A stretch of 39,537 nt of DNA from Phaeodactylibacter luteus (GTDB taxonomy: Bacteria > Bacteroidota > Bacteroidia > Chitinophagales > Saprospiraceae): the NCBI RefSeq assembly GCF_007993045.1, contig NZ_VOOR01000048.1, positions 1 to 39,537 on the forward strand. Reading direction: 5' to 3'. The position numbers and the translations under genes are program-made. Of this stretch, positions 1,561 to 39,475 are shown one piece after another; within the stretch, counting starts at the first letter, position 1, and each line of letters begins with the position of its first letter. Below the pieces are notes generated by a model. That model worked only from the letters and a program-made list of their open reading frames with translations, was not told where the DNA came from and did no database searches.

Positions 1561-1670
1561 GGCCTAGCGCTGCGCAGGGGTGGCAAGCCCGTCAGGGCCG
1601 AGCGGATAGCGAGCCCCGCAGCATAGCGGCACCTGCCATCCGGCAGGGGCAGGCCCCAAAACGACAAACT
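1561..1670 (+). repeat. Dispersed intergenic repeat, copy A
   Basis: Copy A of a core repeat also present at 9818-9993, 22034-22243, 28076-28231 (inverted) and 32703-32836 (inverted). Shared landmarks in order are GGCCTAGCGCTGCG, GCCC-N4-GGGC, GGGCCGAGCGG, AGCGAGCCCCG, CATAGCGGCACCTGCC, GGCAGGGGCAGGCCCC and an AAAACGACAA tail. The hairpins are GCCC(GTCA)GGGC and CCTGCC(ATCC)GGCAGG. It occupies the middle of the 475-bp gap 1390-1864. Apart from this copy, a terminator and a possible promoter, I see nothing else in that gap. Confidence 0.85.
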
Positions 1671-1760
1671 GGCCGCGGGCTGTAAGGCCAAGCAGGAAGC
1701 TGTAGTGGATGGCGGGTTAAATAGTTTATTATCAGTGGTTTGTGCGGGTTGCATTGTTTT

Positions 1761-1788
1761 TTGTAATGTAAAAAAAATGTAAATTTAT
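1761..1788 (+). promoter_or_regulatory. Possible Bacteroidota promoter for the metalloprotease gene
   Basis: TTTTTTG ending at 1763 is followed after 16 bases by TAAATTTA (1780-1787), seven of eight matches to the -7 consensus TAnnTTTG. The predicted start near 1794 gives a leader of about 70 bases. Spacing is slightly short, so this is tentative. Confidence 0.4.
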
Positions 1789-1864
1789 TGGATTGTAGGC
1801 TTAGCGTGCAGCGCGCTATGCTGGTATTCCTAAAAATCCTATCACAGTCTCAAAAACTATTACC

Positions 1865-4846
1865 ATGAAACAGCTGAACCTATTCGTATTGGCTTGCCTC
1901 TTATCGACCATTTTATTGGGGCAGAGCCCTAACACTGCTTACCCGCTATTTGACGAGGCGGGCATAGCAGCCGCTGAAAAAACGTACCAGGAAGTGGTGG
2001 AAGGCACGCTGCTTTCCATCGATCCTAACATGCTAAAGGCGCTTCGTGCGGAAGCCCCTGGCAGGCTGAGCGTAGACATCCCGTTGAGGAGCGGGAAAAG
2101 CCTAGCGCTGGAACTGGAGCGAATCCAGATTTTTTCAGCGGATTTCAAAGTAGAAAGCAGCCGGGGCGGACGAGCGCATGGCCTCGACTTCGGCATTCAT
2201 TACAAGGGCCGAATAAAAGGCCATGTGGCCTCTTTGGTTTCTTTCAGCATTTACGAAAGTGGTGTCGCTGCGCTGATGAGCGACGGCAGGCACGATTATG
2301 AACTGGCAGAGGTAGAAGACCGGCCAGGCCGTTACATTGTCTACAAAACGGCCGATTTGGAGGAGCGCATCAAGTCGCAGCTGTTCCGTTTCCAGTGCCA
2401 TACGGAGCGCAGCGGCCGTGGCTTGCCGGTCTACAGCGAGGATCAGCTGTTTGGAGCCGGGGCATCCCGAAACGGCTGCAAGGTCATTCAGGTGTACTTG
2501 GTCTCTGATTTTTCCTTTTACGAAGTTAATGGCTCCGATTTGGCAGAGACTACGAACAAGCTCATTTCTGTTTTTGCGCAGACTATCACCATCTATGACG
2601 CTGAAAGCATCAATATGGTCATGTCCGGGATTTTTGTATGGGACTCAGAAGATACCTTTGACGAAGGTGCAGATGCTGAGGTGCAGCGGGACCAATTCCG
2701 GGATTATTATAACGGTGACGGCGCAGGCTGGCCTGGCGACCTCGCACAGCTGATATCGGGCTTTCCGGGCACAGGCGGAGGAGGCATAGCCTATTTTGAT
2801 GGGTTATGCACGGAAGACTCTTATGCACTGACAAGAGCAGGTGGCGATGCCCCCATCTTGCCTTGGACTTCTTATTCCAGGTTTGTGAAAGTGCTGACCC
2901 ACGAGATTGGGCACAACCTGGACTCGAGGCATACCCATGCTTGTGTTTGGAATGGCGACAATACCCAGATTGATGACTATGGCAATGCAAGCCCCGGTGG
3001 TGCAGAAGTTGACGATGCAGAAGGTGGGGCTTGTTTTAGCGATCCGGCGATACTCGATGTAACCCCAACCATCATGAGCTATTTTGACAGCTTTGGCCAT
3101 GGGGAGTTCGTCATGACGAATGGCATGGGCACTCAGCCGGGGAATGTGATGCGCAATTATATCGATAATGCCAGTTGCCTCGATGATGGGAGCAATGTGC
3201 CCCCGGTCGCTATTTGTCAAGACGTGACCGTGCAGCTGAATAGCATTGGGGATGCTGTCACTACGGCAGCCGCTATCGACGACGGTTCTTACGATGCTTG
3301 CGGCAGTGTGCAGTCTTTGTCGCTCAATGTCTCCAGCTTTACTTGCGCCGATGTGGGGGAGAACCCCGTAATGCTTACCGTAGAAGACGATAACGGGAAC
3401 ACGAGTACTTGCACGGCAATGGTGGCCGTTGAAGATAACGTGTCCCCTTCTGCATGGTGTCAAAATGCAACCGTGGAGCTGGACGGCAGCGGAACGGGCA
3501 GCGTCGCGGTAAGCAGCATTAACAACGGCTCGGCCGATGCTTGTGGCATTCAGTCCCTTTCCCTGAGCGAAACAGCTTTTACCTGCTCAGACTTGGGCCC
3601 CAATACCGTTTCCCTCACGGTTACAGACAACAACGGCAATATGGCGAGCTGTGAGGCTACCGTGACGGTCGAAGATAATACTGATCCCGTAGCGGCCTGC
3701 TTTTCTGGCACCGTCTTGCTCAATCCGGAAGGGCTTTATGAGCTTCAGCTGGAAGATGTCTATGATATGGCTGGCAGCAGTGATAACTGTGGCATCACAT
3801 CCGTTGGTTTTGATCCATATACTTTCGACTGTGATGATCTGGGGCTGAGCATTATGGTCGGCGTAACCGTTGAAGATGAGCGTGGCAACAGCAACAGTTG
3901 CACTGCAGAGATTTTGGTAGAAGAGGGAGCCGCTCTGCCGGTGCCCTGGTACGAAGCCACAATTGGTAATGCCCCGGGCACGCTTGGTGCCTATAGCCCC
4001 TGTACCGGAACAGGTGAATTTTCTCTTGAAACGGGCGGTCTCAACCCTATCAATGGGCCACAGGACAACTTGGGCAGCATCCTTCAAACGGTATGTGGCG
4101 ATGTGTCCATCACGGCACAGGTATCCGATGTGGCCAATGGCTACGCCGGCCTGGTCATCCGGGAAAGCACGGCGGCCGGCAGCCGCTACGTTGGTTTGTA
4201 TACAGCAGGCAGCAGCATTTACAGGCGCGAATCGAGGGCAGTGCCCAACGGGCCGAAGCAGGCGGCCCTTTATATGGGCAGCACCGCTGGATGGATGCGC
4301 CTGGAACGGCAGGGCAACCTGGTGCGGTTGTACCGCAGTTTCAATGGGGTGCAATTCCAGTTGTTGACGCAAGTATTTATCAATCTGCCAGCCTGTGCAG
4401 ATATAGGGCTGGCAGTCTTTTCTATCCGTCCAGGGCAAGATGGCACCGCCACTTTTACCAATGTAAGCCTAGCTGGGGCGGGCCCGGCTTTAAAGGGGGC
4501 TGTCGTGCCGGCAAACCATCTTGGGCTGAAGGAGGGAGAGCCCTTGGATGCCCCGGGCATGTTCCTCGAGAGCCTGAGCGGCAGCAGTGTTCTGCCCAGT
4601 CAGGCCAAGGTATACCCCAACCCTGCCCGCGGGCAGTTCACCCTTGAGCTGGGCAGCCCGCTAGAGGCTGAGGCTACCGTAGTACTGCGGGATCAGCTGG
4701 GGAGGGGAGTAGGCACAAAAAGGTTGGAGCCTGGGCAGGCACAGTCGGTATGGGATGTGAGCGGGCTTCCTGTAGGCTTGTACCTGCTGCAGATTGGGCA
4801 AGCCGATGCTGCGGACTGCTACTTGAGGGTAACACTGGAGCGTTAA
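1865..4846 (+). CDS. Secreted metzincin (reprolysin-like, M12B-type) protease with HYR repeats, DUF1349-like and T9SS domains
   Basis: A 993-residue protein. A signal peptide (MKQLNLFVLACLLSTILLG, cleavage after about 20) precedes a propeptide-like region and a zinc protease domain at about 205-440. The zinc motif is HEIGHNLDSRH (His346, Glu347, His350, His356), followed by the Met-turn IMSY near 404. Position 8 of the metzincin motif, usually Gly, is Asp. Three HYR-type repeats follow (about 446-524, 525-603, 604-688), each with paired cysteines, then a DUF1349-like concanavalin-A fold (about 689-875) and a T9SS type A sorting domain (from 916, VYPNPARGQF). It should act outside the cell on proteins or peptides. 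The C-terminal 240 codons are nearly identical to the upstream paralogue. ATG was chosen for the clear signal peptide. Natural substrate unknown. Confidence 0.9.
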   Translation: MKQLNLFVLACLLSTILLGQSPNTAYPLFDEAGIAAAEKTYQEVVEGTLLSIDPNMLKALRAEAPGRLSVDIPLRSGKSLALELERIQIFSADFKVESSRGGRAHGLDFGIHYKGRIKGHVASLVSFSIYESGVAALMSDGRHDYELAEVEDRPGRYIVYKTADLEERIKSQLFRFQCHTERSGRGLPVYSEDQLFGAGASRNGCKVIQVYLVSDFSFYEVNGSDLAETTNKLISVFAQTITIYDAESINMVMSGIFVWDSEDTFDEGADAEVQRDQFRDYYNGDGAGWPGDLAQLISGFPGTGGGGIAYFDGLCTEDSYALTRAGGDAPILPWTSYSRFVKVLTHEIGHNLDSRHTHACVWNGDNTQIDDYGNASPGGAEVDDAEGGACFSDPAILDVTPTIMSYFDSFGHGEFVMTNGMGTQPGNVMRNYIDNASCLDDGSNVPPVAICQDVTVQLNSIGDAVTTAAAIDDGSYDACGSVQSLSLNVSSFTCADVGENPVMLTVEDDNGNTSTCTAMVAVEDNVSPSAWCQNATVELDGSGTGSVAVSSINNGSADACGIQSLSLSETAFTCSDLGPNTVSLTVTDNNGNMASCEATVTVEDNTDPVAACFSGTVLLNPEGLYELQLEDVYDMAGSSDNCGITSVGFDPYTFDCDDLGLSIMVGVTVEDERGNSNSCTAEILVEEGAALPVPWYEATIGNAPGTLGAYSPCTGTGEFSLETGGLNPINGPQDNLGSILQTVCGDVSITAQVSDVANGYAGLVIRESTAAGSRYVGLYTAGSSIYRRESRAVPNGPKQAALYMGSTAGWMRLERQGNLVRLYRSFNGVQFQLLTQVFINLPACADIGLAVFSIRPGQDGTATFTNVSLAGAGPALKGAVVPANHLGLKEGEPLDAPGMFLESLSGSSVLPSQAKVYPNPARGQFTLELGSPLEAEATVVLRDQLGRGVGTKRLEPGQAQSVWDVSGLPVGLYLLQIGQADAADCYLRVTLER
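4034..4763 (+). repeat. Long direct repeat, right copy (pairs with 580-1309)
   Basis: Right-hand member of the 730-bp pair. It encodes most of the DUF1349-like domain, the linker and most of the T9SS sorting domain. Sequence on either side diverges at once: the preceding HYR repeats are only moderately similar and the last 25-30 residues differ. Confidence 0.95.
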
Positions 4847-4900
4847 CAAGGCAGAATGGGCTATGGCTTGTGTTTCAATAGCACTGAGCCGCATAGCTTA

Positions 4901-4944
4901 TAGGAAAGGCCCGGCTGAGCATAAACTCAGCTGGGCTTTTCCTA
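4901..4944. terminator. Bidirectional terminator between convergent genes
   Basis: A 19-base arm (4901-4919) pairs with 4926-4944 around a six-base loop, with two G-U type positions. The right arm carries CTTTTCC and the left arm GGAAAGG, so it can serve both the protease gene and the minus-strand gene ending at 4946. Confidence 0.8.
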
Positions 4945-4945
4945 T

Positions 4946-6400
4946 TTACAACGGCTGTTGGCCTTCGAGCTGCTTGGCCTTGTCCAGCAGCCAGCCTTTA
5001 TTGTTCACGGGCTCAAGGGCTTGAATATCTGAACGTAAGGGAAGCTCAGGAGCCGCCGATCCAAATTGGCGCCCCCGGGACTTGGCTTTTTGTAGCCATC
5101 CGATAGCTTTAAGAAAGTGGTGGTTTGATTTTTTCTGATAGGCAGAGAGCTGCCGGTTGCGTTGGATGTATTTCCTTGAGGCTTCCAATAGGGCAAGGAG
5201 TGCCTCTTCTTCGCCGAGCTCATAATAGCTTTTGAGCTGAATGATCTTTGCGGACATGTGGTAGAATGCATCAGAGAAATCTACATCCTGCAAGGTTTGC
5301 AGGGTTTTGTGATAGGCCGATTGCTCAAATTGCAGTGCGGCGAGGTTGTAGGTGAATACATTCTCCCGGTTTTCCGGGTCGAGCTCTTCCCGGTAGGTGC
5401 GCAAGAACCATTCGGTCCATTTAAATTCCTGCAGGCGGATGCCGGCCGTGGCGATATTGATATAGGTCCACTGAGTGAGCATACCCTGCCGGTGGAGCAG
5501 CCCTTGGGCGAGCATCTCCTTATAGTTGTCCAAGATTTCCCGGTAGTAGGCCGTGTGGCCGGAGTTGATCTGCTTGACGCAAAAGTTCTGAAGATAGTCG
5601 TACAGATCTTGCAGCTCCTCCTGAGGGAAGAGGCCGCGGTGCCCTTGGAGCAGGACCTTGAGCTGTCTGTAATGGGCTTCTTTATCAGTAGTCAGCATGG
5701 CATACGCCTCCGCATATACCGTGATGGCCGGCCATTGCCGCAGTGGGCTGCCCGGCTGTTGGTGCCAACTGAGGACCGTATCGATGTACTGGCAGGAGTA
5801 CCCGGCGTTGATGGCCCGGTTGCGGCTCGCCATGTCACAAGCCGCACGCAATTTCTGGCAGCTGAAGTAAAGGTCGAGCTGATCGCTGTGGGCTTGTAGG
5901 TAGGGGTTATAGCGGCGGGGTGCCCGCAACAGTTCAGCACGGTCCAAAAGGTAAGCTTCCTGTACGGTCTGATGAAGGTATTGTACAGAGCGGGAGGGCA
6001 GCTGCCGGGTGAGCTGTTTCATGCGCCGGGCATTTTGTCTAAGGTGGCGGCTTGCCCTCCGGTCGAGGAGCGGGTTGAGCAAGAGCTCCCGCTCAAGGGC
6101 CGGCCGATTGCTGAGCTCTAGCTGGGCAAGCAGTTGATAGCCCAATTGTAGGGTATCGGAGATCAGGTTGTTGATGCGCAGCTCATTAAAGGTGCTGCCC
6201 GGCCCGTAGACGGCCTGGTAAGCGAGCTCTTTGGCCAGCTTTGGGCTGCTGAAATCAGGGGCAAAAGAAAGCAGGAAGTCGAGCAGGGCAGTGATTTTAG
6301 GGTTTTTATTGAAAAATGGGGACAATGCCATTTCGCGGAAGCGAGTCCGTTCGCGGGTGGATAAAGCTTTGAGCAGATCAGAGAGCTTTGCTTTTTCCAT
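4946..6400 (-). CDS. Conserved helical cytoplasmic protein, function unknown
   Basis: A 484-residue protein starting MEKAKLSDLLKALSTRERTR. There is no signal peptide or membrane segment. The sequence is rich in Leu, Gln, Arg, Tyr and Glu with repeated amphipathic helix patterns, suggesting an all-alpha, possibly TPR-like solenoid. I recognise no catalytic motif or named family. The ATG at 6400 is preceded by AT-rich sequence (TAGCTAAA) typical of Bacteroidota starts without a Shine-Dalgarno. It stands alone on the minus strand between T9SS cargo genes; no functional link to them can be inferred from position alone. Confidence 0.75.
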   Translation of the reverse strand: MEKAKLSDLLKALSTRERTRFREMALSPFFNKNPKITALLDFLLSFAPDFSSPKLAKELAYQAVYGPGSTFNELRINNLISDTLQLGYQLLAQLELSNRPALERELLLNPLLDRRASRHLRQNARRMKQLTRQLPSRSVQYLHQTVQEAYLLDRAELLRAPRRYNPYLQAHSDQLDLYFSCQKLRAACDMASRNRAINAGYSCQYIDTVLSWHQQPGSPLRQWPAITVYAEAYAMLTTDKEAHYRQLKVLLQGHRGLFPQEELQDLYDYLQNFCVKQINSGHTAYYREILDNYKEMLAQGLLHRQGMLTQWTYINIATAGIRLQEFKWTEWFLRTYREELDPENRENVFTYNLAALQFEQSAYHKTLQTLQDVDFSDAFYHMSAKIIQLKSYYELGEEEALLALLEASRKYIQRNRQLSAYQKKSNHHFLKAIGWLQKAKSRGRQFGSAAPELPLRSDIQALEPVNNKGWLLDKAKQLEGQQPL

Positions 6401-6495
6401 TTTAGCTATATTGGATTTATTTAAATAATTGCAAATAAGAGGTTTATGTTGTATTGAGGGATTAAAATTAGCTATATTTTAGATAAAGTGTACTT

Positions 6496-6524
6496 TTTGG
6501 GCGGCAGTAATGGGCCTACCTTTG
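6496..6524 (+). promoter_or_regulatory. Bacteroidota sigma-A promoter for the cohesin gene
   Basis: TTTG (6496-6499), 17 bases, then TACCTTTG (6517-6524) is an exact fit to the TTTG/TAnnTTTG consensus. The predicted start near 6530 leaves a leader of about 73 bases before ATG 6604. Confidence 0.8.
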
Positions 6525-6603
6525 TAATGCAGTTGAGAAAAGGCTGCGCATTTCATAATTCCAGGAACATATTGGAGCCCAGCTCCCCAAAACTAAAATC
6601 TCT

Positions 6604-9600
6604 ATGAAACGACTTATCCTATTGTTCTTTTTATCCATGGCAGCAGGCCCTTGGCTCAAGGGGCAGGAATGTTTCAGCTTGTTCGTTGATCAGGTAGCAG
6701 GCAGCCCGGGCGAGGAAGTTTGTGTGCCGGTGCGTGCAGACGGGGTGGAAGGCTTGGTCTCGATGCAATTCAGCTTAGGCTGGGATGCTTCCAAGCTTCA
6801 GCTCACCGGCGTGGCCAACCTTGTTCTGCCTCAGCTTTCAACGAATAATTTCAACCTTGACCCTGCTTTTAATTCGGCAGGGCAGACCGCCCTATCTTGG
6901 TTTGATATCTCTACACCGGGCGGGCTTTCCCTTCCAGATTCTTCCATTCTCTTTGAGCTGTGCTTCGAGGTCCTTTCCCCCGGAGGGTATGCAAGCATCC
7001 ACTTTGCCCAGACGATTGCCCCCTACGAGTTCACGGCCTTACCTGGGAACGTATTGCCCACTTACGCCCTGATGAGCGGAGGGGTGAGTGCGGAAGCAGA
7101 TATGCCGGCTTTCAGCGGGGCTTGCTTCACATTGGGCGATTGTACAGATGGAGGGGCTATCTTCCCTCAGCTGTCCAATTCAGATCAGGTAGTGGCCTAC
7201 AACTGGCATCAGGGCGGTCAGGGCATATCCACTTCAGATTTTCTTGGTGGGGCAGCCCCCGGCCTTTACAAATTGAATGTGACAGATGTTGCCGGGCGGG
7301 AATTGCAAGCGGATTTTAGCTTGGGCGCAGCAGACGGCGTGTTTGTATCTGGCTATGATTTATCACCTCCGACTACCTGTGGAGGCGCAGACGGCAGCAT
7401 TGAGGTATTTGTGGAAGGCGGTTCGGGCAGCTATGACATTGCATGGAGCAACGGGCAGTCTGGCAGCGTGATATCTGGCTTGTCCCCCGGAGTATACATC
7501 GTATGGGTGACAGACCTGGAAACGAATTGCGATTATACAGCGGTGTACGTCATCCCCGCTGGGGGCGAGCTGTTGACCGCTTATTCCTATGCTTGCACAC
7601 AATTTGAGGATCAGCCGGCAGTGGTGAGCATCACTTGTGCGGTGTGGGACGGTGGCGGCCTTCCGCCCTATACTTTTGAGTGGTCTAATGGGTATACAGA
7701 GGTGAACGATTGGGTAAGCACCCTGGAGGATGTGCCCTCTGGCTTTACTTATGGGCTGACCATTACCGATGCTTCTGGGTGCAGCTATGAGCCTTTGCCG
7801 GCTTTCGCCGAATGTGATTCTGCTGTGCCTGAAGGGCAGCTGAGCATTGGGGAGGCTATTGTAGCCCCCGGGGCTGAAGTTTGCCTGCCGGTATTGATGA
7901 GCGGGGTACAAGCGCTCAGCTCCTTCTCCACGGGCATCGGCTGGGATCCGGAAGTGCTCAGCTTTACAGGGGTGAATGAAGGGAGCCTGCCAAGCCTGTT
8001 AGATTTTGGGCTGGGGCTGGAGCACGCTGGGCAGGGGCTGCTGAGCATAGACTGGGCTACGGATGTGCCAGAAGGCGAGTTCTTCAGCGGCCCTGCTACC
8101 ATACTATTTGAAATCTGTTTTGATGCGGTTGGCGCGCCCGGCAGCAGTACCGCTGTAGAATTTGACCCCGAAATACAGCCAACGGTTTTGGAGCTGACAG
8201 GAGGAGTACTGCAAACGAGCTTATCGGACGGCGTTTGCTTGATCAGTGGGGGGGCTGAATCCGTTGGGCTGCAGTGGGGCGCCAAGGCGGCCAATGTAGG
8301 AGAAAGTGCCTGTCTGGATGTGACCGTATCCAACTTTACAGACGTAGCAGGGGTGCAGTTCTCCACAGACTGGGACCCCACGTTGATTGCTTTTGACACC
8401 TTGTTGCTGTCCGGCAATCTGCCCGCCTTGAACCCTAGTGCGAACTTCAATTTGCAGCATACGGATGAAGGCAATATGGCGGTAACCTGGTTCGACCCTG
8501 CCCTCAGTTCACTGTCCCTGCCTGATGGTACGCCCTTGTTTAGCCTGTGCTTCACGGCTTTGGGGCCAGAAGGGTTTGCTCCGGTCTCCTTTAGCAATCA
8601 GCCGGCATTGATTGAGGTGTCTAATGAAAATGAAGTCCTTCCTGTTCAGGTGCAGCATGGCGGAGTGGATATGCTGCAGCCTGAGGTATGGCCTGGAGAT
8701 ACGGATACCGATGGGCTGGTGAGCCATTATGACCTGCTCAATATCGGGCTGGGCTATGGCTCAGCCGGGCCGGGCCGGGAAAATGCGAGCATCAACTGGG
8801 CAGCACAATATGCACCGGCATGGGAAGGCAGCACGCCTGGCACCGGCGTCAATTTCAAGCATCTGGATACGAATGGCGATGGGCTGATCGATGCTGCAGA
8901 TACGCTCGCCCTAGTCCAAAACTGGGGGGAAGAAGTGAACTTTGCCCCCGGTGAGGCAGAAAACCGCCTCGATGGGGCCTCCATCTTTATCGAGCCGGAT
9001 ACTGTAGTCTTAGGCGACGAAGCGGTCTTCAATATCATTTTCGGTGAAGAGGTGCAGCCTGCACAGGAGATTTATGGCCTGGCCTTTAGCATCGTATATG
9101 ACACCTCGGTTGTAGTGCCGGGCAGCGGGGCAGCTCGCTTCATGGAATCGTGGCTTGGGCAGGAAGGTACCGACCTGCTGGGCGTTTCCAAAGATCAGGC
9201 AGGGGGCAGCCGGGTAGATGTAGCCCTTACCCGGACCGATGGGCTGAACCGGACCGGTGCTGGTACGATAGGGCAGCTGCACATTACCATTCAGGATGTC
9301 ATTTTCGCAAGAGCAGAGGCTTATGAGCTACCGTTCGCCATTGAAAACATCAGGGTCATCAACGCTTTGGAAGAGGAGCAGCCCGTTGTGCCACAGTCCA
9401 CTGTAGCTTTGGTCCTGGAAGCCATCACAACCCTGGCGCCTGGCCCGGATGCGCTGCTGGAGGTATACCCCAATCCTGCCCGTGAGCGCCTTCAGGTCAG
9501 CGTGAAAGGCTTGCCTGTAGACGAGGCAAGGCTTTGGTCTGCCGCCGGGCAGTTGGTTTTAGAGGGCAAAGGGGAAGAGCTTGATATCAGCCAAGTGCCA

Positions 9601-9742: not shown

Positions 9743-9817
9743 ATGTGGCAAAAGTGTGCTGTTTGCCTTGGCATCCACGGCTCAGTAGCCCTATCCTGGT
9801 AAAGGCCAGATGGTCGT

Positions 9818-9993
9818 AAACCAAAATGCCGCAGGCGTTGATATTTTCGGGCTTTATAGCCTGGCATTGGCCTAGCGCTGCGAAGGGGTGGCAAGCCCGA
9901 CAGGGCCGAGCGGACAGCGAGCCCCGCAGCATAGCGGCACCTGCCCTCACGGCAGGGGCAGGCCCCATCCAAAAAAAAAAACGATAATCTGGT
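9818..9993 (+). repeat. Dispersed intergenic repeat, copy B, with upstream module
   Basis: The core starts at 9869 (GGCCTAGCGCTGCG) and is preceded by a module (9818-9868) containing CCGCAGGCGTTGATATTTTC, which recurs at 22034 and, alone, at about 39426. Hairpin one is GCCC(GACA)GGGC and hairpin two CCTGCC(CTCAC)GGCAGG: stems as in copy A, loops different. The core ends in GGCAGGGGCAGGCCCC, an A-run, then ACGATAATCTGG. It fills the centre of the 553-bp gap 9670-10222. Confidence 0.85.
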
Positions 9994-10098
9994 TGGCGGG
10001 CGGTGAGAATAGGCCACTTCACTGAATGTACAGCAGGCAACTGGCAGAGCGGGCTGGGATAGCGCCTTGAATCTTTGGAGTAGTGACGAAGTGGGCGC

Positions 10099-22033: not shown

Positions 22034-22243
22034 CCAAAACCCAAATACCGCAGGCGTTTATGCCTCTCGGGCTTTCGGCTGGCATTGGCCTAGCGCTGCG
22101 CAGGGGTGGCCGAAGGCCAGACCCGACGCCTGTAGGGCGAGGGGCCGAGCGGATAGCGAGCCCCGGAGCATAGCGGCACCTGCCATCCGGCAGGGGCAGG
22201 CCCCCATCACATGGTGCAGGGGCAGTCCAAAAAAACGACAATC
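22034..22243 (+). repeat. Dispersed intergenic repeat, copy C, with upstream module
   Basis: The upstream module (22034-22086, CCGCAGGCGTTTATGCCTC) is followed by the core from 22087. Compared with copy A it has a 21-base expansion between GGGGTGG and GGGCCGAGCGG and an extra CCCCCATCAC...AGGGGCAG block before the AAAACGACAATCTG tail. That block is shared only with copy D. Hairpin two is CCTGCC(ATCC)GGCAGG. It sits in the 597-bp gap 21825-22421 between divergent genes. I see nothing else definite in that gap besides the trpS leader. Confidence 0.85.
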
Positions 22244-24424: not shown

Positions 24425-26419
24425 TCAGAGGTTTTTGAAATGCTTTTTGCCCCGGGCATAATACGCCCATACAATGCTGCCCGGGTAGCGGCCCGCGAGG
24501 TTGGGCGTAGGGCTGATACTGGCTTTCTGTACCAGCTCTGCGGTGTGCCTGCGCTTGGCAAGGGTAGCCGAAATCTGGCCAAAGAACGACCAATGGGCTT
24601 TCACTATTGCGGCAATGTGCGTTAGTTTGCCTTGAAAGAGGAAGAGCAGCCCCGCTACGCCGTCTAGCAGCAAACGGGCGGGCAGCAGCCACAACAGCCG
24701 CTGAGGGGTCTCGTTTTTCACCAAAGTGAACAAGCTGTTCCGGAAGTTGAGGAAAGCTTTGCGCGGGGTGTTGTAGGCCAGGGTGCCGCCTCCTACGTGA
24801 TAGACCACCGAGCGGGGCCGTGCCATGACCTTGTAGCCGGCCCTTTTTATGCGCCAGCACAAGTCGATCTCTTCGGAGTGGGCAAAATAGCCGCCATCAA
24901 AGCCGCCAAGGCCGAGGAAAAGGCGGCTGCGGACCAAGAGGGCAGCGCCTGTGGCCCAGAAGATTTCCTGCAGCTCATCGTACTGCCCGGTATCCGGCTC
25001 TGTGACGGCAAAAATCCGGCCGCGGCAAAATGGGTAGCCCAGGTTGTCCAGCCAGCCGCCAGCCGCGCCAGCGTACTCAAAACGCCCCCGGTCATGGAAG
25101 GCTTTGATCTTGGGCTGGCAGGCGCCCACGGTAGGGTCCCGTTCCATAAGCTCTACCAAAGGCTGCAGCCAGCCCGGCGTCACCTCCACATCAGAGTTCA
25201 GGAGCATATAATAAGGGGCTTCTACCTGCTTTAGCGCTTGGTTGTACCCTTCTGCAAAGCCGTAGTTCTGCCCGAGGTCGATCAGCCGTAGCTGTGGGTA
25301 GGCTTCCCTCAGCCATCGCTTCGAGCCATCTGTGCTGCCGTTGTCCGCAACCACAACGCTCAGGTTGTCGTATTGGCTCTTCAGTACAGCAGGCAAGAAC
25401 TTTTGGAGCCACTCCTTGCCGTTGTAGTTGAGGATGACCAAGGCTACTTCAGGATTCGGCTTGCTCAGCTTTGAAATGTTTTCAGACAAAGGGCGGAGGA
25501 TGCTTAGGGCCGCCTCCCGGTCTTGGCCCAGCTGTTCTGCAAGGCCTTCGAGGCTGCCGAACTGTTGGTCATCGCGGATGCGGGATACCAGCTCCAGCTG
25601 TAGCTTGTCGCCATAGATGTCCCGGTCAAACTCGAAGAGGTTGACCTCTATGGTCTTGTTTTGGTAGGCTTTGAGGGTAGGGCGGTCGCCTATATAAAGC
25701 ATGCCGCCATAGCGCTGCCCCTGATGCTGCGCCCATACCGCATAGATGCCAGCCGGCGGCAACAGTTTATGGCGGTTGCCAAGATCGAGGTTGGCTGTAG
25801 GGTATCCCAGTTGGTGGCCGATCTTGTTGCCGTGCACCACTAGCCCAGTCAGGGTGAAGTAATGGCCCAACAACCGGGCAGCACCTGCCACGTCCCCGCT
25901 TTCTAGCGCTCTGCGCACCTTGGTGGAGCTCACCGCAATATCTTCTACTTCCTGCTTCTCGATCTCTGTGACCTGATAACCACAAGCCGGGCCGTGGTGC
26001 TTCAGGTAATTGATATCCCCTTGCCGGTTGAGCCCAAAGCGGTGGTCGTAGCCGATGACGATGTGTTTTGGGCTGAATTGGCCTACCAAGAACTTTTGGA
26101 TGTACTCATCTGCGGACTGCTGAGAAAAATCCACTGTGAAGGGCACGACCACTACGTTGTCAATGCCATAGTGGCGGAACAAGTCCACTTTTTCTTCTAT
26201 GGTCGTGATCAGTTGAAGGGAGTTGTCTTTAGGGTAAATGACTAGCCTGGGGTGAGGGTGGAACGTGATGACAATGCTCTCGCCGTTCTCTTCCCTGGCC
26301 AGTGCTTTGACCCGGTCCAGTATTTGTTGGTGGCCGTGGTGTACCCCATCAAAGGAGCCAATGGTCAGCACAGCATTTTTGAACTCCGGCAACTGTTTTA
26401 AATCGTTGAATACTCTCAT
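24425..26419 (-). CDS. ribF: RibF (riboflavin kinase/FAD synthetase) fused to a family 2 glycosyltransferase
   Basis: One 664-residue frame with no internal stop. Residues 1-310 are a complete RibF: FAD synthetase motif GSFDGVHHGH (21-30), FHPHPR, GYDHRFG, SSTKVRRAL, and the riboflavin kinase motif GHQLGYPTANLDLG with the expected C-terminal helix. From about 325 a GT2 domain begins (VALVILNYNGKEW, ADNGSTDGSK, the DxD-like LLNSDVEV near 405, and HSEEIDLCWR near 513), with a hydrophobic segment near 575-597. RibF makes FMN and FAD; the GT2 part resembles rhamnosyl- or hexosyltransferases of polysaccharide assembly. Both halves look intact. A TTG in frame near residue 313 could also start a separate GT protein. 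Fusion is seen; joint function is unknown. Confidence 0.85.
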   Translation of the reverse strand: MRVFNDLKQLPEFKNAVLTIGSFDGVHHGHQQILDRVKALAREENGESIVITFHPHPRLVIYPKDNSLQLITTIEEKVDLFRHYGIDNVVVVPFTVDFSQQSADEYIQKFLVGQFSPKHIVIGYDHRFGLNRQGDINYLKHHGPACGYQVTEIEKQEVEDIAVSSTKVRRALESGDVAGAARLLGHYFTLTGLVVHGNKIGHQLGYPTANLDLGNRHKLLPPAGIYAVWAQHQGQRYGGMLYIGDRPTLKAYQNKTIEVNLFEFDRDIYGDKLQLELVSRIRDDQQFGSLEGLAEQLGQDREAALSILRPLSENISKLSKPNPEVALVILNYNGKEWLQKFLPAVLKSQYDNLSVVVADNGSTDGSKRWLREAYPQLRLIDLGQNYGFAEGYNQALKQVEAPYYMLLNSDVEVTPGWLQPLVELMERDPTVGACQPKIKAFHDRGRFEYAGAAGGWLDNLGYPFCRGRIFAVTEPDTGQYDELQEIFWATGAALLVRSRLFLGLGGFDGGYFAHSEEIDLCWRIKRAGYKVMARPRSVVYHVGGGTLAYNTPRKAFLNFRNSLFTLVKNETPQRLLWLLPARLLLDGVAGLLFLFQGKLTHIAAIVKAHWSFFGQISATLAKRRHTAELVQKASISPTPNLAGRYPGSIVWAYYARGKKHFKNL

Positions 26420-30719: not shown

Positions 30720-30721
30720 GA

Positions 30722-32702: not shown

Positions 32703-32836
32703 TTTCAGGCCTGCCCAGCCCAACAGTAGGGGCCTACCCACGCCCGACGGCGCGGGTCGCTACGCTCCGGGGCTCGCTGCCCGCTCGGCCCTATCGGGCT
32801 TACACCCCTTCGCATCGCTAGTCCGCCAAGGGCCAG
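32703..32836 (-). repeat. Dispersed intergenic repeat, copy E (inverted, divergent)
   Basis: Minus-strand orientation. Core landmarks are retained: TAGCGATGCGAAGGGGT, GCCC(GATA)GGGC, GGGCCGAGCGG, AGCGAGCCCCGGAGCGTAGCG and TAGGCCCC. The second hairpin is a different sequence, ACCCGCGCC-GTC(G)-GGCGTGGGT (complement of 32736-32757), yet still pairs over nine bases with one G-U. It lies in the 310-bp gap 32629-32938; the remainder holds the operator palindrome at 32891-32922. Confidence 0.8.
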
Positions 32837-32890
32837 CTCCCTCAATATAGGTGAAGACACGCCACAGTTGGCAGGAGGGCACACTGCAAC

Positions 32891-32922
32891 GCTAAAATAA
32901 TTAGCATGCTAACTATTTTAGC
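32891..32922. promoter_or_regulatory. 32-bp operator-like palindrome, MarR/SlyA-type core
   Basis: GCTAAAATAaTTAGC | ATGCTAAcTATTTTAGC: a 32-base inverted repeat with one mismatched pair. The central TTAGCATGCTAA is close to the SlyA box TTAGCAAGCTAA (established for Salmonella SlyA). It ends 16 bases before ATG 32939, so it would cover the promoter or start of transcription of the decarboxylase. It could also read the divergent M50 gene. Confidence 0.75.
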
Positions 32923-32938
32923 CTAAAATTCGCTATCT

Positions 32939-34168
32939 ATGCACAAAAAGATGAGGCATTGGAAAAAGCACACCCCGGAGCAGGTCCAAGCCCGGGTTTT
33001 TGAAGCCTTAGCCGGGAATGTAGATTACCGCGAGCGTTCTCCCCTAGGGCTGCCCGCCTCCCACCTCGACGAGAAAGTCTTCACGCCCCAGCCTTCTTTG
33101 CTGCGGGAGGCCCCTTTCCTGAGCACCCTGATACAGAACCCCAATCATATCGGTTGCCATACGCTGGGCGACTCCGAAAGCTTCTTTGCCGGCACACAAG
33201 AACTGGAACGGGAGCTGATCGCGCTTTGTGCGGAGGATATCCTACAAGGCGCCCCTGGCGGTTTTGACGGCTACGTAGCCGCTGGGGGCACAGAGGCCAA
33301 CATTCAGGCAGCCTGGGTTTACCGGAATTACTTCCAGCGGGAAAAAGGGGCGTCAGCTGCTGAGGTGGCCATTCTGACCTCCTCAGATGCGCATTACTCC
33401 ATGCACAAAGCGGCCAACCTGCTGGGCATCCGCCTCTTTGAAGTAGCAGTAGGGGAGGAAGACCGCAGCTTGAGCCGACTGGCGGTAGAACAAGCCATCG
33501 AACGTGCACAGGCAGCAGGCGTCAGGTATTTCATCGTGGTCTGCAATATGATGACCACCATGTTTGGCTCGGTAGACAAGGCAAGCGTATACTTAGAGGC
33601 CCTCCAAAAGGCAGGAGCATCGTTCAAAATGCACGTCGATGGCGCTTATGGCGGCTTTTTCTTCCCTTTTTCGGAGGTCGCCCATGATCTGCACTTTGGC
33701 AATGAGGCCATTTCTTCCATTACCCTCGACGCGCACAAAATGGTACAGGCGCCTTATGGCACGGGCATTTTCCTGGCTAGGAAAGGCTTGATGAAGTATG
33801 CTTATACGGAAGAGGCGCAGTACGTACAAGGGCTGGATGCCACCCTTTCCGGCAGCCGCTCGGGAGCCAACGCTATTTCAGTGTGGATGATCCTGATGAC
33901 CTACGGCCCTCATGGCTGGCACGAAAAAATCCACATCCTTAATTACCGTACTGCATGGCTCTGCCGGCAGCTTAGCGAAAAGAAGGTGCCATTTTACCGC
34001 CATCCGGGCTCTAATATTGTCACGGTAAAGTCATCGGCTGTCAAGGCCGAAGCTGCCCGCAAGTATTCTCTGATCCCGGACAGCCATGGCCAGCCATCAT
34101 GGTACAAATTTGTAGTCATGGACCATGTGACCATAGACCGGCTGGGAGCGTGCCTGCAGGAGCTGTAG
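32939..34168 (+). CDS. PLP-dependent group II decarboxylase-like protein
   Basis: A 409-residue fold-type I PLP enzyme of the glutamate/tyrosine/DABA decarboxylase (group II) family. The Schiff-base Lys267 is in TLDAHKMVQAPYGTG; Asp234 in HVDGAYGG contacts the PLP ring nitrogen; GGTEANIQA (about 120-128) and SDAHYSMHKAANLLG are typical phosphate/ring contacts. It is shorter than GadB and resembles MfnA-type or uncharacterised decarboxylases, so the amino-acid substrate cannot be named. It is a single-gene unit behind a strong palindrome, implying control by a small-molecule-responsive repressor. ATG 32939 (MHKKMRHWKK); a second ATG at codon 5 is possible. Converges on queA with four bases between stops. 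Confidence 0.85.
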   Translation: MHKKMRHWKKHTPEQVQARVFEALAGNVDYRERSPLGLPASHLDEKVFTPQPSLLREAPFLSTLIQNPNHIGCHTLGDSESFFAGTQELERELIALCAEDILQGAPGGFDGYVAAGGTEANIQAAWVYRNYFQREKGASAAEVAILTSSDAHYSMHKAANLLGIRLFEVAVGEEDRSLSRLAVEQAIERAQAAGVRYFIVVCNMMTTMFGSVDKASVYLEALQKAGASFKMHVDGAYGGFFFPFSEVAHDLHFGNEAISSITLDAHKMVQAPYGTGIFLARKGLMKYAYTEEAQYVQGLDATLSGSRSGANAISVWMILMTYGPHGWHEKIHILNYRTAWLCRQLSEKKVPFYRHPGSNIVTVKSSAVKAEAARKYSLIPDSHGQPSWYKFVVMDHVTIDRLGACLQEL

Positions 34169-34172
34169 GCCG

Positions 34173-35408
34173 TTACCGCACGCCCTGCCCCAGCAGCAGG
34201 CTGCTGTCTCCATAACTGAGGAAGCGGAAGCTGTTGTCCAAGGCATATTGGTAGGCGGCCTTCCAGTCTTTGCCGATAAGGGCAGCAATCAAGAGGAGCA
34301 AAGTTGACCTTGGCTGGTGGAAGTTGGTGATCATGCCACTACAGATGCGGAAGGTGTACCCAGGGGCGATGATCAGGCGGGTAAAGCCCTGAAGATGTTC
34401 CTGCCCGTTAACTTTGAGGTGCTCCACAGTAGCGCGGAGCGCTTCGGCCGGCGCAACATCGGGCTTCCCTTCATAAGGCTCCCACTGCCCAACGGAGGCG
34501 AAGGGCGCTGCCCCCCCATCTAAGACCTTACGGCCGTGCCAGTACAGGCTCTCCAGCAGCCGGGTGCTGGTAGTGCCCACCGGGATGACCGGATGGCCAG
34601 CTTCGAGGTGAGCGGCGAGCTGTTGCAGGGTATCTGGGTGGATGAAGATGCTCTCCTCGTGCATGTGATGCCCTTCGAGCCGGTCGGCGGTCACGGGCTT
34701 GAAAGTGCCTGCCCCGACATGAAGGGTGACAAACGCCCGTTGGGCCCCTTGCTTCTCAAGCTCGCGCAGCACCTCATCTGTAAAATGCAGCCCTGCAGTG
34801 GGCGCTGCCACAGAGCCTTCCTCTTCGGCGTAAACCGTTTGGTAGCGGTCTTCATCTTCCGGGGTGTTCTCCCGGTTGAGGTAAGGGGGCAGGGGGATAA
34901 TGCCAGCCGCTGCGAGCAGTTCCCCAAACGCTAAAGTGGGGTCATCCCATTCGAAGCGGATCTCAAAGGCATCTGCTGTGCGCCCAATGCGGGTAGCGGA
35001 TAGGTTTACTTCCCCGGAAGGGCCTGCCACGGTTTTAGCAATTTCCCCGCTCTTCCAGCGGCGGTTGCCGCCCACCATGCATTTCCAGTGTACAGCTTGG
35101 GTGGAGGAAAAGCTCTGCTGATGCTCTGCCGGCGACAGGGGCTCCAAGCAGAGGATCTCCAGAGGTTTGCCGTTGGGCAGGGCAAAGTGGAGGCGGGCAT
35201 GGATTACCCGCGTATTGTTGAAAACCAGCAAAGCTTGTTCTGGCAGTAAGCCGGGCAGCTCCCGGAAAACACCATGGGACAGGTGCCCATTTTTGTAGAT
35301 CAGGAGCTTGGAAGCATCACGTTGTTCCAGAGGGAATTTAGCGATGCGTTCTTCCGGCAGATCGTAGTTGTACTCGTTGATGTCAATTTCTTGAGGGCGC
35401 ACAAGCAT
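34173..35408 (-). CDS. queA: S-adenosylmethionine:tRNA ribosyltransferase-isomerase
   Basis: A 411-residue cytoplasmic enzyme that transfers ribosyl from SAM to preQ1 in tRNA, making epoxyqueuosine. Family signatures: YDLPEERIAKFPLEQRDASKL (N-terminus), FNNTRVIHARL, PTAGLHFTDEVL, TLHVGAGTFKPV and the C-terminal ITNFHQPRSTLLLLIAALIG. Slightly longer than E. coli QueA (356 aa), with a longer region near 115-135. Starts 15 bp after the metH stop, so the two are one operon; co-location links a SAM consumer to methionine regeneration. ATG 35408 yields MLVRPQEIDINEYNYDLP. Confidence 0.96.
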   Translation of the reverse strand: MLVRPQEIDINEYNYDLPEERIAKFPLEQRDASKLLIYKNGHLSHGVFRELPGLLPEQALLVFNNTRVIHARLHFALPNGKPLEILCLEPLSPAEHQQSFSSTQAVHWKCMVGGNRRWKSGEIAKTVAGPSGEVNLSATRIGRTADAFEIRFEWDDPTLAFGELLAAAGIIPLPPYLNRENTPEDEDRYQTVYAEEEGSVAAPTAGLHFTDEVLRELEKQGAQRAFVTLHVGAGTFKPVTADRLEGHHMHEESIFIHPDTLQQLAAHLEAGHPVIPVGTTSTRLLESLYWHGRKVLDGGAAPFASVGQWEPYEGKPDVAPAEALRATVEHLKVNGQEHLQGFTRLIIAPGYTFRICSGMITNFHQPRSTLLLLIAALIGKDWKAAYQYALDNSFRFLSYGDSSLLLGQGVR

Positions 35409-35423
35409 TACGGTATTGAAGGG

Positions 35424-38400
35424 TTAAACGTCATAATTCAAGACGGGGGCGAGCCAGCGTTCGGCTTCTTCCAGGCTCATGCCTTTGCGCTCGGCGTAGT
35501 CTTCCACCTGGTCTTTGCTGATTTGGCCCAAGCCAAAGTATTTGGATTCCGGATGGGCAAAGTACCACCCACTGACAGATGCGGCCGGGTACATGGCATA
35601 GCTTTCGGTCAGGGTGATGCCCGTATGCCGCTCCACATCTAGCAGCTGCCAGAGGGTGCCCTTTTCGGTATGCTCAGGGCAGGCCGGGTAGCCCGGGGCG
35701 GGGCGTATGCCAGTGTAGGATTCGGCAATGAGCGCATCGTTGTCCAGGTTCTCCTCAGCGGCGTAGCCCCAGAACTCTCTGCGCACCCGCTCGTGCATGC
35801 GCTCAGCCAGTGCTTCTGCCAGGCGGTCTGCCAAGGCTTTTAGCATAATGGCGTGGTAATCATCGTGGTCGGCTTCAAAACGCTTGATGTGCGCTTCAAT
35901 GCCCACACCTGCAGTCACGGCAAAGGCTCCTATATAGTCTTCTCCAGCGGCGGCAGGGCGCACGAAATCAGAAAGGGCATAATTGGGCTGCCCGGGGGCT
36001 TTTTGCCGCTGCTGCCGCAAAAAGTAGAGCGAGGCCTCAAGCTCCTGCCTGTCTTCGTCTTTGTAGATGGCCACCGTTTCGTCCCCAGTAGCGTTTGCCG
36101 GGAAAAGCCCAATAATGGCTTTGGCCTGCAGCCACCGCTCATCGATGATCTGCCGGAGCATGCTGCGGGCATCGTTGTACAGCTTCTGCGCTTCTTTGCC
36201 GACCACCTCATCTTGCAAAATGGCAGGGAACTTGCCTGCCAGCTGCCAGCTGGTGAAAAATGGCGTCCAATCGATATAAGCAGTTAGCTCTTCTATGCTG
36301 TAATCCTCAAAGACTTGTACGCCAAGCTGCCGGGGGGCGATAGCCGGGGCTGCTGCCCAGTCTGGAGTGAAAGCGTTGGCCCTGGCTTTGTTCAGGGTAA
36401 GGTATTTTTTATTAGACTTGCGGTTGCCCCTGAGCGTACGCACCCGGTCATAGTCTTTTCGGATGTCAAGGATGTAGTTGCTACGGCTGTTTTCGTCCTC
36501 GCTCAGCAAGTTGCTGACCACCGTCACGCTCCGGCTGGCATCGAGCACATGCACTACCGGCCCCGAGTATTGCGGCTCAATCTTTACGGCAGTGTGGGTC
36601 TTTGAGGTGGTCGCCCCGCCAATAAGCAGCGGCAGTTGCATCTGCCTGCGCTCCATTTCCTTGGCGATGTGCACCATCTCATCCAGAGAAGGGGTGATCA
36701 GGCCACTGAGCCCGATGACATCAGCGCCTACCTCTACGGCTTTGGCCAGTATTTTTTCTGCCGGCACCATTACGCCCATGTCTACAATATCATAGTTGTT
36801 GCAGCCTAAGACTACCCCAACGATATTTTTGCCAATGTCATGCACATCCCCTTTTACGGTAGCGAGGAGGACTTTCCCTTTGGCACTTCCTGCGCCCTCC
36901 GCTTTGGCCGCTTCAATATAGGGCGTGAGGTAGGCCACCGCTTTCTTCATGACCCGGGCGCTTTTGACGACCTGCGGCAGGAACATTTTCCCGGAGCCGA
37001 AGAGGTCGCCTACGACGTTCATCCCGTCCATCAAGGGCCCTTCAATGACATCAAGTGGGGCCGGGAGCGTTTGCCGGGCCTCTTCCGCATCGGCCTCAAT
37101 GAACTCCGTAATCCCTTTGACCAAGGCATGCTCAATGCGCTTGCCCAGGGGCCATTCCCGCCAGGCGAGGTCTTTTTTCATCGTGCGGCCGCCATCCCCT
37201 TTTATGCTTTCCGCAAACTCGGTCAGGCGCTCGGTGGCATCTTCCCTCCGGTTGAAGAGCACGTCTTCTACCCGTTGTAAAAGCTCTTTGGGGATGTCGT
37301 CATAGATTTCCATCATGCCTGCATTGACGATGCCCATGTCCATGCCGGCCTTCACGGCGTGGTAAAGGAAAGCGGAGTGCATCGCCTCCCGCACGGTGTT
37401 GTTCCCGCGGAAAGAGAAGCTGATATTGCTGACCCCGCCGCTCACTTTAGCGCCGGGGCAGCGGGCTTTGATCTGCCGGGTCGCCTCGATAAAGTGTATG
37501 GCGTACTCGTTGTGCTCCTCTATGCCTGTAGCTACTGCGAAGATATTGGGGTCGAAGATGATATCCTGTGGGCGGAAACCGACCTGCTGTGTGAGGATGT
37601 CGTAAGCCCGTGCACAAATCTCTACCTTGCGCTCAGTCGTATCCGCCTGGCCCTGCTCATCGAAAGCCATGACAACGGCTGCTGCGCCATAGCGGCGCAC
37701 GAGTTTCGCCTGTTGGATGAAGGCTTCTTCCCCTTCTTTCAGGGAAATGGAATTGACGATGCACTTGCCCTGCACACATTTCAGCCCGGCTTCGATGACG
37801 GAAAACTTGGAAGAGTCGATCATAATGGGCAGGCGCGCAATATCGGGCTCTGCCATAAGGAGGTTGAGAAAGGTGACCATGGCCTGTTCAGAGTCGAGCA
37901 GGCCTTCGTCCATATTGATGTCAATGACCTGTGCACCGCCTTCCACCTGTTGCAGCGCAACCGAGAGCGCTTCGGTATAGTCTCCGTTTTTGATCAAGCG
38001 GGCAAACTTGCGGGAGCCAGTGACATTAGTCCGTTCGCCCACATTCACGAAGTTGGTCTCTGGGCGGATGATGAGGGGCTCAAGCCCGCTGAGCATGGTA
38101 TATCCCGGTTGGCTGGGTATAGCCCGCGGAGGCACCCCTTTGACTGCCTCTGCCATATGCTGAATATGGTCAGGTGTAGTGCCACAGCAGCCGCCGATGA
38201 TGTTGACAAAGCCGCTTTCCGCAAAGTCGCGGATATATTGTTGCATTTCCTCAGGCTGCTGATCGTATTCCCCAAACTCGTTGGGCAGCCCGGCGTTGGG
38301 GTAAGCGCTGATGTAGCAGTCGGCTATATTGCTCAGGGCTTCTACGTGCGGCCGCATCTCCTCAGCCCCAAGGGCACAGTTGAGCCCAACGCTGAGCAGG

Positions 38401-39101
38401 GGCATGTGGCTGACAGAAATCCAAAAGGCTTCTGCTGTCTGCCCGGAAAGGGTACGCCCGCTCGCATCGGTGATGGTGCCCGATACCATAATGGGCAGTT
38501 GTATGCCCCGCTCATCAAATAGCTGATCGATGGCGAACAAGGCCGCTTTGGCATTGAGGGTATCGAATACGGTCTCTACCAAAATGATATCCGCGCCTCC
38601 GTCGACTAGCCCCCTTACCTGCTCGTAGTATGCTTCCTTCAGCTCATCGAAGGATGTTGCCCGGTAGCCGGGGTCATTGACATCGGGCGACATAGAGGCG
38701 GTCTTGTTGGTCGGGCCCATAGCGCCTGCGACGAAGCGCGGCTGCTCCGGGGTTTTTGCGCTATACTCAGCAGCTGCTTTGCGGGCCACACGAGCCGCTT
38801 CCTTATTGATCTCGTAGGCGTAGGCCTCCATGCCGTAGTCGGCTTGGGCAATGCTCGTACCGCTAAAAGTGTTGGTCTCGATGATGTCAGCGCCTGCTTC
38901 CAGGTAAGCCTTGTGTATGGCTTCGATGATATCGGGCTGTGTGATGGATAGGATATCGTTGTTGCCTTTAATGTCCATAGGCCAATCGGCAAATCGCTCT
39001 CCTCTGTAGTCTTTTTCTTCTAGGCGGTACTCTTGGATCATGGTGCCCATTGCTCCGTCTATGACCAAAATGCGTTGCTGGAGCAGTTCGTATACTGACA
39101 T
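35424..39101 (-). CDS. metH: Cobalamin-dependent methionine synthase, full length
   Basis: A 1225-residue enzyme transferring the methyl group of 5-methyltetrahydrofolate to homocysteine via cob(I)alamin. All four modules are present. The homocysteine domain has zinc ligands Cys242 (LNCALG), Cys305 and Cys306 (GGCCGTT); the pterin domain (about 340-620) carries [12 protein letters not shown]. The cap and B12 domain have [11 protein letters not shown] with cobalt-ligand His754, and the C-terminal AdoMet-activation domain has [15 protein letters not shown] near 1135. Length matches E. coli MetH (1227). ATG 39101 gives [20 protein letters not shown]. It heads a metH-queA operon. The enzyme needs B12, so the cell must import or make cobalamin. 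Confidence 0.98.
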
Positions 39102-39357
39102 GGCTGATGAATTTGCTGGTGATGTAGCTGGATTAGCGCTTGTTTGGACTTTAGTGATCGGGTTGTCCCGCTAGACAGCGGGGCGATTTTTGGCTTATGC
39201 TTTGTTCCGAAAACCCCTCCCGCTTTTTACAGATAGTAATAAAGTGGGATTGGGCTTTCCTGCCTTGCTTAACCAAAAAACTGCATGTTCTCGCCGAGAA
39301 GACCAAAGTTCAAACAGGCTCATAACAACAAGTGTTGGATTGAGGTTGGCAAAGGTA
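39102..39357 (-). promoter_or_regulatory. metH: metH leader and -7 element
   Basis: Minus strand: TACCTTTG (complement of 39350-39357) fits the Bacteroidota -7 consensus; no clear -33 TTG at normal spacing. A transcript from here would have a leader of about 240 nt with hairpins TTCTC-GGC-GAGAA (near 39300) and CCCGCT-GTCT-AGCGGG (near 39170). I see no cobalamin box or SAM-I core in it. A short open frame (39195-39398) here has no protein-like features. Confidence 0.5.
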
Positions 39358-39425
39358 AGGAATAATGGAAACCCGGCTGCTGGCCGGAGGTAATACATAT
39401 GTCAGGAGTTACGGCCTTCAGCTGG

Positions 39426-39475
39426 ATGGGCACAAACCAAAATATCGCAGCCGTTGATGCTTTTCGGGCTCTAGT
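39426..39475 (+). repeat. Isolated upstream module of the dispersed repeat
   Basis: CAAACCAAAATATCGCAGCC and GTTGATGCTTTTCGGGCT match the module that precedes the core in copies B and C. No core follows before the window ends at 39537, so it is either a solo module or a longer spacing variant. The last 60 bases hold nothing else recognisable. Confidence 0.6.

Follow-up and report, generated by a model that had tools for sequence, protein, structure and literature searches.

Most known dispersed repeats of bacteria are short palindromes. A conserved secondary structure is known from bcr1, an interspersed and likely mobile repeat of the Bacillus cereus group, and folded single-stranded DNA that is recognised by proteins occurs in the promoters of phage N4, which are ssDNA hairpins with GNA loops, and in the attC sites of integrons. 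The element described here can be likened to bcr1 by description, not by sequence, and occurs in another phylum; its likeness to the N4 hairpins and attC sites is one of analogy, and no integrase or cassette array was seen. REP/BIME elements with RAYT are characterised, in the sections of the source used here, as dispersed, intergenic, palindromic DNA with a high copy number (PMC3733652). Narunsky et al. (2024) report, in the portions of the article considered, 250 mobile/repeat candidates with many copies and covarying pairs, left undecided between RNA and DNA; among these is MRSC-65-2, a single long stem with UYCCGG repeats (PMC11109978).

Compared with these descriptions, the core of our element differs from REP/BIME in being a closed junction of ~100 nt with a conserved core, with neither a short GTAG-tagged hairpin nor an association with Y1 transposases, and from MRSC-65-2 in being multibranched instead of a single stem, MRSC-65-2 being the one candidate of Narunsky et al. 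that was compared. By the tests made, and measured against those portions of the sources, the core behaves like the mobile/repeat motifs and REP elements, yet it is neither MRSC-65-2 nor REP. No description of the element was found in the literature searched (subscription journals and supplements lay outside its scope), and six literal core strings turned up only in unrelated papers. Its multibranched fold of ~100 nt comes with a very large covariation signal. The element invites the questions whether selection can act on a selfish element in the form of folded single-stranded DNA, how the two arms of a pairing come to be rewritten jointly at a single locus, and how structured cargo enters a MITE.

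The window, the whole 39,537-nt stretch of Phaeodactylibacter luteus DNA that was analysed, had been proposed in a sequence-only reading to hold five copies (A to E) of a repeat in both orientations, with shared core landmarks and a hairpin stem GCCC/GGGC that is kept in A, B, D and E under the loops GTCA, GACA, GGTA and GATA. Direct reading together with a repeat search in both orientations confirmed the five copies, and landmarks, stem and loops are as described. The wholly different nine-pair stem of copy E is also present, one of its pairs being G-T. In contrast, what had been taken for an isolated module at 39426-39475 is in fact the left inverted end of the same MITE as in the other copies. 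The features are as follows, with bit scores from the covariance model R1:

1560..1657, plus strand: structured core of copy A, R1 112.6 bits; no inverted ends recognisable at up to 5 mismatches
9812..10001, plus strand: copy B, whole MITE; ends worn, no clear target duplication remaining
9868..9966, plus strand: structured core of copy B, R1 109.1 bits
22031..22255, plus strand: copy C, whole MITE; both ends present and worn, long-loop core variant with extra hairpins
22086..22204, plus strand: structured core of copy C, R1 86 bits
28110..28221, minus strand: structured core of copy D, R1 92.9 bits
28059..28078, minus strand: right inverted end of copy D, AGGCAATCAAGTTTGCGCCC; left end not found
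32729..32825, minus strand: structured core of copy E with a wholly different P3 stem, R1 97.2 bits; no inverted ends recognised
39428..39471, plus strand: copy F, a sixth MITE copy, left inverted end and sub-terminal part, by direct reading
39474..39537, plus strand: start of a second MITE family (GTGCCTCA..., inserting at TA), lying within copy F and truncated where the contig ends

Copy F is interrupted at about 39472-39474 by this second, TA-inserting MITE, which runs off the contig end. The MITE nature of the repeat is not visible from the window copies because these are worn, truncated or interrupted. As already supposed, no transposase was found in the window, here by Pfam analysis of 24 likely genes selected from the 114 listed ORFs. 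Two observations concern the genes themselves: the ORF at 24425-26419 (minus strand) combines, unusually, matches to FAD synthetase/riboflavin kinase with one to a family 2 glycosyltransferase, and the neighbouring genes at 298-780 and 3752-4234 have DNA segments of 72-88% identity in common, possibly a domain duplication.

A DNA search with copy B found at least 40 places in the P. luteus genome (6.01 Mb, 301 contigs), with E-values from 2e-87 to 1.3e-51. Model R1 detected 52 cores in 433 kb sampled from the genome (the window plus two long stretches of contig), a density near one per 8 kb; if this sample is typical, extrapolation gives roughly 700 cores genome-wide. The covariance search and copy count had been proposed beforehand, and their outcome, a copy number far above five, speaks against a mere local duplication. 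Pattern matches combined with simple ORF calling placed 48 of 49 sampled copies between genes and one inside a long ORF. Of five congeners of P. luteus, four are without a core match, and the fifth has just one, of 21 bases.

Alignment of full-length copies revealed the outer vehicle, a MITE with inverted ends of ~20 bp (GGGCGYRAACCARAWTGTCG) and 8-bp target duplications. The left-end pattern gave 187 matches at up to 2 mismatches, compared to 0 for the control read backwards. In 52 distinct elements with both ends, the 8-bp flanks were identical in 24 and differed by at most one mismatch in 39 (random pairs: 0.00075), and duplication widths of 6, 7, 9 and 10 gave next to nothing when each element was counted on both strands. 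The reported lack of target duplications is therefore correct for the window copies, but not elsewhere in the genome, where 8-bp duplications are clear. In P. luteus the element is thus mobile as a MITE that duplicates 8 bp of its target, and the earlier suggestion of a non-autonomous element mobilised in trans is borne out, for this genome, by the inverted ends and the duplications. Short length, inverted ends, duplications and high copy number are those of other MITEs, and the outer vehicle belongs to a known kind; the difference lies in the cargo, a conserved folded unit that is found elsewhere without these ends.

Both ends were recognised for 21 of the 52 sampled cores, the left one only for 5, the right one only for 11 and neither for 15; in the window, A and E have neither, D has the right one only, and B and C have both in worn form. 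The copy number and the occurrence in both orientations in P. luteus are explained by the core riding on the MITE vehicle. At 2 mismatches, the end pattern matched 232 and 228 times per strand in this genome, 20 times in the Saprospiraceae MAG_35 (G109), 6 times in G131 and at most 3 times in the others. IS1595 was rejected as source of the vehicle's transposase, as P. luteus has no match to this family.

The cargo folds into a closed, branched junction of ~95-150 nt. Helix P1 (5 bp) joins both ends of the core. P2 consists of a lower helix, a GNA/GNA internal loop and an upper helix of 4-5 bp, and carries one or two free-sequence hairpins as well as a highly conserved strand, CCGAGCGAAYAGCGAG. 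P3 is a further free-sequence hairpin, and the 3' end of the core, CC(C/A), is followed by A-rich DNA. The fold, with P1, the two-part P2, P2a and P3, was proposed from 21 sequences (A1), 19 copies of P. luteus and two of G014, in which 93.3% of the cells are paired and 10 pairs are doubly changed; none of 500 shuffles reached the observed values. For 70 copies taken from 23 other genomes (A1 shares two of these copies), in an alignment made with the model and so biased towards its structure, 92.4% of the cells are paired and 23 of 28 pairs are doubly changed. Here, 348 doubly changed paired cells stand against 101.6 after shuffling and 26-52 with slid partners. The corresponding values for the 43 copies of A5 are 221, 56.4 and 16-29. 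P1 occurs as GGCCT/AGGCC, GCATC/GATGC, GCGTG/CACGC and GCGCA/TGCGC, and in the most divergent copies the lower P2 helix changes from the GCG-type to GGG/CCC, while the CCGAGCGAAYAGCGAG strand and the CATAGCG/CGTAGCG motif vary little in most copies. Across about 20 genera, compensatory changes maintain the fold. The claim that pairing is preserved while bases change holds, with compensatory changes in large excess over shuffled and slid controls.

Rfam gave 0 matches above the gathering score in the window, and a permissive scan of three sequences yielded six sub-threshold matches, none of them on the element. As a separate observation, the forms GCGCTG...CATAGCG and GCGATG...CGTAGCG replace each other almost without exception, C going with A and A with G, even among copies of a single genome; this two-state change is not of the Watson-Crick type and involves columns 11 and 135 of A3 (columns 11 and 130 of A5).

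The distribution of the core extends well beyond its vehicle. R1 matched in 24 of 149 sampled Saprospiraceae genomes and the broader model R3 in 28, P. luteus included, which corresponds to 25 of the 112 genera of the family sample (24 besides Phaeodactylibacter). At least 26 core matches each were found in P. luteus, G014, G029, G052 and G073, the latter being Saprospira grandis str. Lewin, a species that has been cultured. By extrapolation, at least two genera thus have hundreds of cores, and three further genera have at least 26 copies. For Saprospira, a few hundred to about a thousand copies is a fair statement; the density of 32 in 140 kb was measured on a stretch selected for its known matches, and a second stretch is poorer (6 vs 14 by pattern). 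Outside the family, the core was detected in at least 5 of 395 genomes of the class sample and at least 2 of 395 of the phylum sample, with only 9-10 candidates per genome scored in both.

Copies from G073, G052 and 21 further genomes consist of the core by itself, which gives way sharply to unrelated flanking sequence. The right flank of this bare core is A-rich (A 0.87 at +2, 0.80 at +3) and the left one ends in T; target duplications are not in excess (4 of 69 copies, 3.5 expected). The match at 44052-44172 of contig 2 of G073 has the same coordinates in plasmid NC_016936.1, and a Pontibacter plasmid holds one match with an E-value of 1.9e-6 and one weak match. Four of ten viral contigs (IMG/VR, picked by a core string) carry single copies of a divergent fold (E about 1e-5), and a fifth match is doubtful (E 0.0095); three viral contigs have the same core sequence and flanks. 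Similarity searches against plasmids gave no match for the P. luteus core and none for the divergent core, while the viral variant matched nothing in phages and, among plasmids, two of Saprospira, one of Pontibacter and, weakly, one of Thauera.

A dispersed, palindromic and intergenic repeat whose bare core lacks target duplications could be a REP/BIME-like element mobilised by RAYT, a Y1 transposase, and a REP-like site had indeed been suggested for the window. We consider this very unlikely. The core is a junction and not a short tagged hairpin, and 10 of the 28 element-bearing genomes, including the many-copy genomes G029 and G065, are without a Y1_Tnp match at an E-value of 0.001. A Y1 transposase was rejected as mover: matches are present in 109 of 149 genomes, namely 18 of 28 element-bearing ones and 91 of 121 others, without association. 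The sequence-only reading as a whole is accordingly supported in part, for pairing and mobility in trans, but not for a REP/RAYT-like site; that the core is a wider unit existing apart from the vehicle was beyond its view. Reverse transcriptase was rejected as mover as well (78 of 149 genomes; 12/28 vs 66/121, no association), and RVT_1 was not found at 1e-10 in the many-copy genomes G000, G029 and G052. A SINE-like retroelement was dismissed on the missing duplication excess and these many-copy genomes without an RVT_1 match. Among 20 neighbour proteins, mostly from low-copy genomes, Pfam recognised no transposase, integrase or reverse transcriptase, and the searches made found no mobilising enzyme for core or vehicle.

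To follow the element at fixed sites, 140 kb of S. grandis (G073) were compared with G165 (~93% identical) and G166 (~85%). A model match at the orthologous G165 site was found for 26 of 32 G073 copies; for the other six, the G165 spacer is equal or longer in five and much shorter in one. In G166, 26 sites could be anchored, 21 of them with a model match. At some loci the flanks align and whole hairpin arms differ between the species with pairing kept. The exchanged arms of one site are AAGCGC/GCGCT, AAGGCC/GGCC and GCCGCC/GGCGGC; at other loci the copies are nearly identical. The changed pairs comprise 29 double compatible changes, 3 single wobble changes and 26 to or from the unpaired state in G165, and 29, 5 and 40, respectively, in G166, with some misalignment included in both. 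On average, model-paired columns did not outpace the flanks in divergence (0.076 vs 0.070 for G165, 0.117 vs 0.132 for G166), which speaks somewhat against the favoured reading; columns modelled as unpaired contain misaligned hairpin regions and were left out of account. Changes in paired columns are clustered in few loci (0-14 over 26 ortholog pairs), and their variance is about five times the mean by hand calculation, where pairing alone would give two. This fits, and does not prove, block replacement by copy exchange or hairpin template switching with a constrained core. Some Saprospira copies have a longer ACAACAAG-hairpin-GCAGTTCGACGACCGAAGGGAGTAAC module in place of the TAGCG motifs, on the two sides of P2 within a single copy; an example is the G165 counterpart of the G073 copy that lies at position 1040 of the compared stretch.

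The clustering, the near-perfect hairpins and the MITE vehicle would also be expected for an ordinary MITE with palindromic innards, in which pairing is not selected and arises as a by-product of palindrome correction at the DNA level by template switching. However, the P1 arms lie ~90 nt or more apart and yet covary over about 20 genera, and the core reaches 24 further genera, whereas the MITE ends are abundant only in P. luteus. This explanation is improbable in our view. About equally improbable is a host-maintained protein-binding or chromosome-organising site. Conserved positions between species and dense occupation of intergenic gaps speak for it, but the distribution is patchy, with 121 of 149 family genomes lacking a match and four of five congeners lacking the core, and the arms are free in sequence and the orientation is mixed. 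Because the copies are positionally stable in Saprospira, present mobility is no more than a candidate property of the bare core, and a host function would also fit.

The surroundings of the copies were analysed in S. grandis. In a G073 sample, 18 of 20 copies are intergenic (pattern and simple ORF calling), one lies in a long ORF and one is unplaced. Along 50 kb of the S. grandis plasmid, 21 matches were obtained, 17 with E-values below 1e-6 and four between 4e-4 and 0.011. Judged by the deposited genes, this stretch has 23 gaps of at least 120 bp; a copy is present in 17 of them, spacers within the pur and paa clusters included. Relative to codirectional neighbours, same and opposite orientation were counted 18 and 10 times in the P. 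luteus sample, 3 and 9 times in G073 and 6 and 7 times on the plasmid. For the plasmid, the high occupancy of gaps in mixed orientation is taken as a sign of a selfish element. The constant orientation or gene class of a cis-regulatory RNA was not observed, the orientation being mixed and the neighbours having no common family.

Wobble pairs indicate whether one strand or both fold. In A3, G-U was counted in 103 cells and A-C in 7 (18 and 3 without the two core wobble columns); the wobble pairs are strand-specific, and hence one strand folds. Concerning the loops, three Saprospira genomes, whose loops are not independent because they have orthologous copies in common, hold 159 element hairpins, of which 126 have triloops, 70 of them GNA, and 151 are closed by C-G; one is GNRA and none UNCG. 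In the same DNA, GNA occurs in 16 of 690 other inverted repeats and in 0 of 49 terminator-like hairpins. The excess of GNA, which leans towards folded single-stranded DNA, and not the lack of GNRA carries weight, because the terminator-like hairpins are also poor in GNRA or UNCG (2 of 49). Of the 184 loops in the 70-copy set, GNA accounts for 54 and GNRA for 1; P. luteus has 10 GNA loops among 145 and 39 GNYA tetraloops, its P2 loops being mostly GNYA. Triloops of the C(GNA)G and AAA types have an unusually high stability in DNA. Folding-energy z-scores of the window copies, -0.4 to -1.4 for RNA and -0.3 to -1.8 for DNA, gave no decision. The consensus was recovered better by minimum free energy with DNA than with RNA parameters (0.665/0.537, 0.606/0.524 and 0.685/0.515), but by pair probabilities DNA was ahead in only 21 of 43, 32 of 70 and 35 of 50 sequences, in a comparison run with no RNA control alongside. 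As the working form, we rate single-stranded DNA slightly higher than RNA.

The most serious alternative is a transcribed structured RNA, either an ncRNA or an intercistronic mRNA element with a role in transcript protection or processing, which mobile DNA would have multiplied and which would be retained for its function as RNA. Covariation and strand-specific G-U pairs are what such an RNA would display, as are the highly conserved unpaired strand and the position conserved between species. Moreover, a copy that would be transcribed through sits in 10 of the 12 S. grandis plasmid gaps that are at least 120 bp long and flanked by codirectional genes, several of them within the pur and paa clusters. 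The mixed orientation to codirectional neighbours, the enriched GNA triloops and the lack of an Rfam family weigh against it, and we regard it as possible, with the odds clearly against it.

We favour, as the probable explanation, a family of selfish, non-coding and non-autonomous elements whose unit is a folded single strand and whose cores in P. luteus are the cargo of a MITE. In P. luteus, the MITE with its core cargo would be moved by a putative transposase acting in trans. The folded strand itself may be recognised in trans by a protein, somewhat more probably as single-stranded DNA (accessible during replication, transfer or repair) than as RNA, and its hairpin arms would be overwritten in blocks by copy exchange or template switching while the core is held. 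A bolder form of this idea, which we offer only tentatively, is a new class of selfish elements that live as folded ssDNA in Bacteroidota and some viruses, with a conserved junction core and free-sequence hairpins rich in GNA and AAA triloops; they would be able to occupy most of the larger intergenic gaps of a replicon, have their arms rewritten blockwise at fixed sites and at times become the cargo of an unrelated MITE.

The vehicle also occurs with other contents. In G109, similar MITE ends enclose arrays of GTTCCGGAGGAAC hairpins that are unrelated to the core, and R3 found no core match in this genome. By eye only, these hairpins resemble MRSC-65-2 as far as it is depicted in the part of its source considered. 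Three G109 elements have both ends; exact 8-bp duplications flank two of them and none flanks the third. Since the core occurs without the vehicle in other genomes and the G109 ends hold other cargo, vehicle and cargo are separable, and the structured repeat borne by this kind of vehicle varies from genome to genome. Eight flanking ORFs were checked for an autonomous partner in G109, and those with a Pfam match are host-type genes. At the end of G109 contig 3, an inverted end is followed by what, by eye, resembles an ORF start (MNEEEFLKMAKAKY) running off the contig; this is a possible autonomous transposon. A pattern scan returned two broken ends only.

Finally, P. luteus harbours further MITEs. 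The second family seen in copy F has a high copy number, a length of ~165-190 bp and ends starting with GTGCCTCA; it inserts at TA, is repeatedly nested in the first MITE and is found as whole copies elsewhere in the contig samples of this genome. At least two further TA-type families (GTGGTCTGTCAAG... and AGAGCTTTTTGAG...) also nest inside copies of the first MITE.
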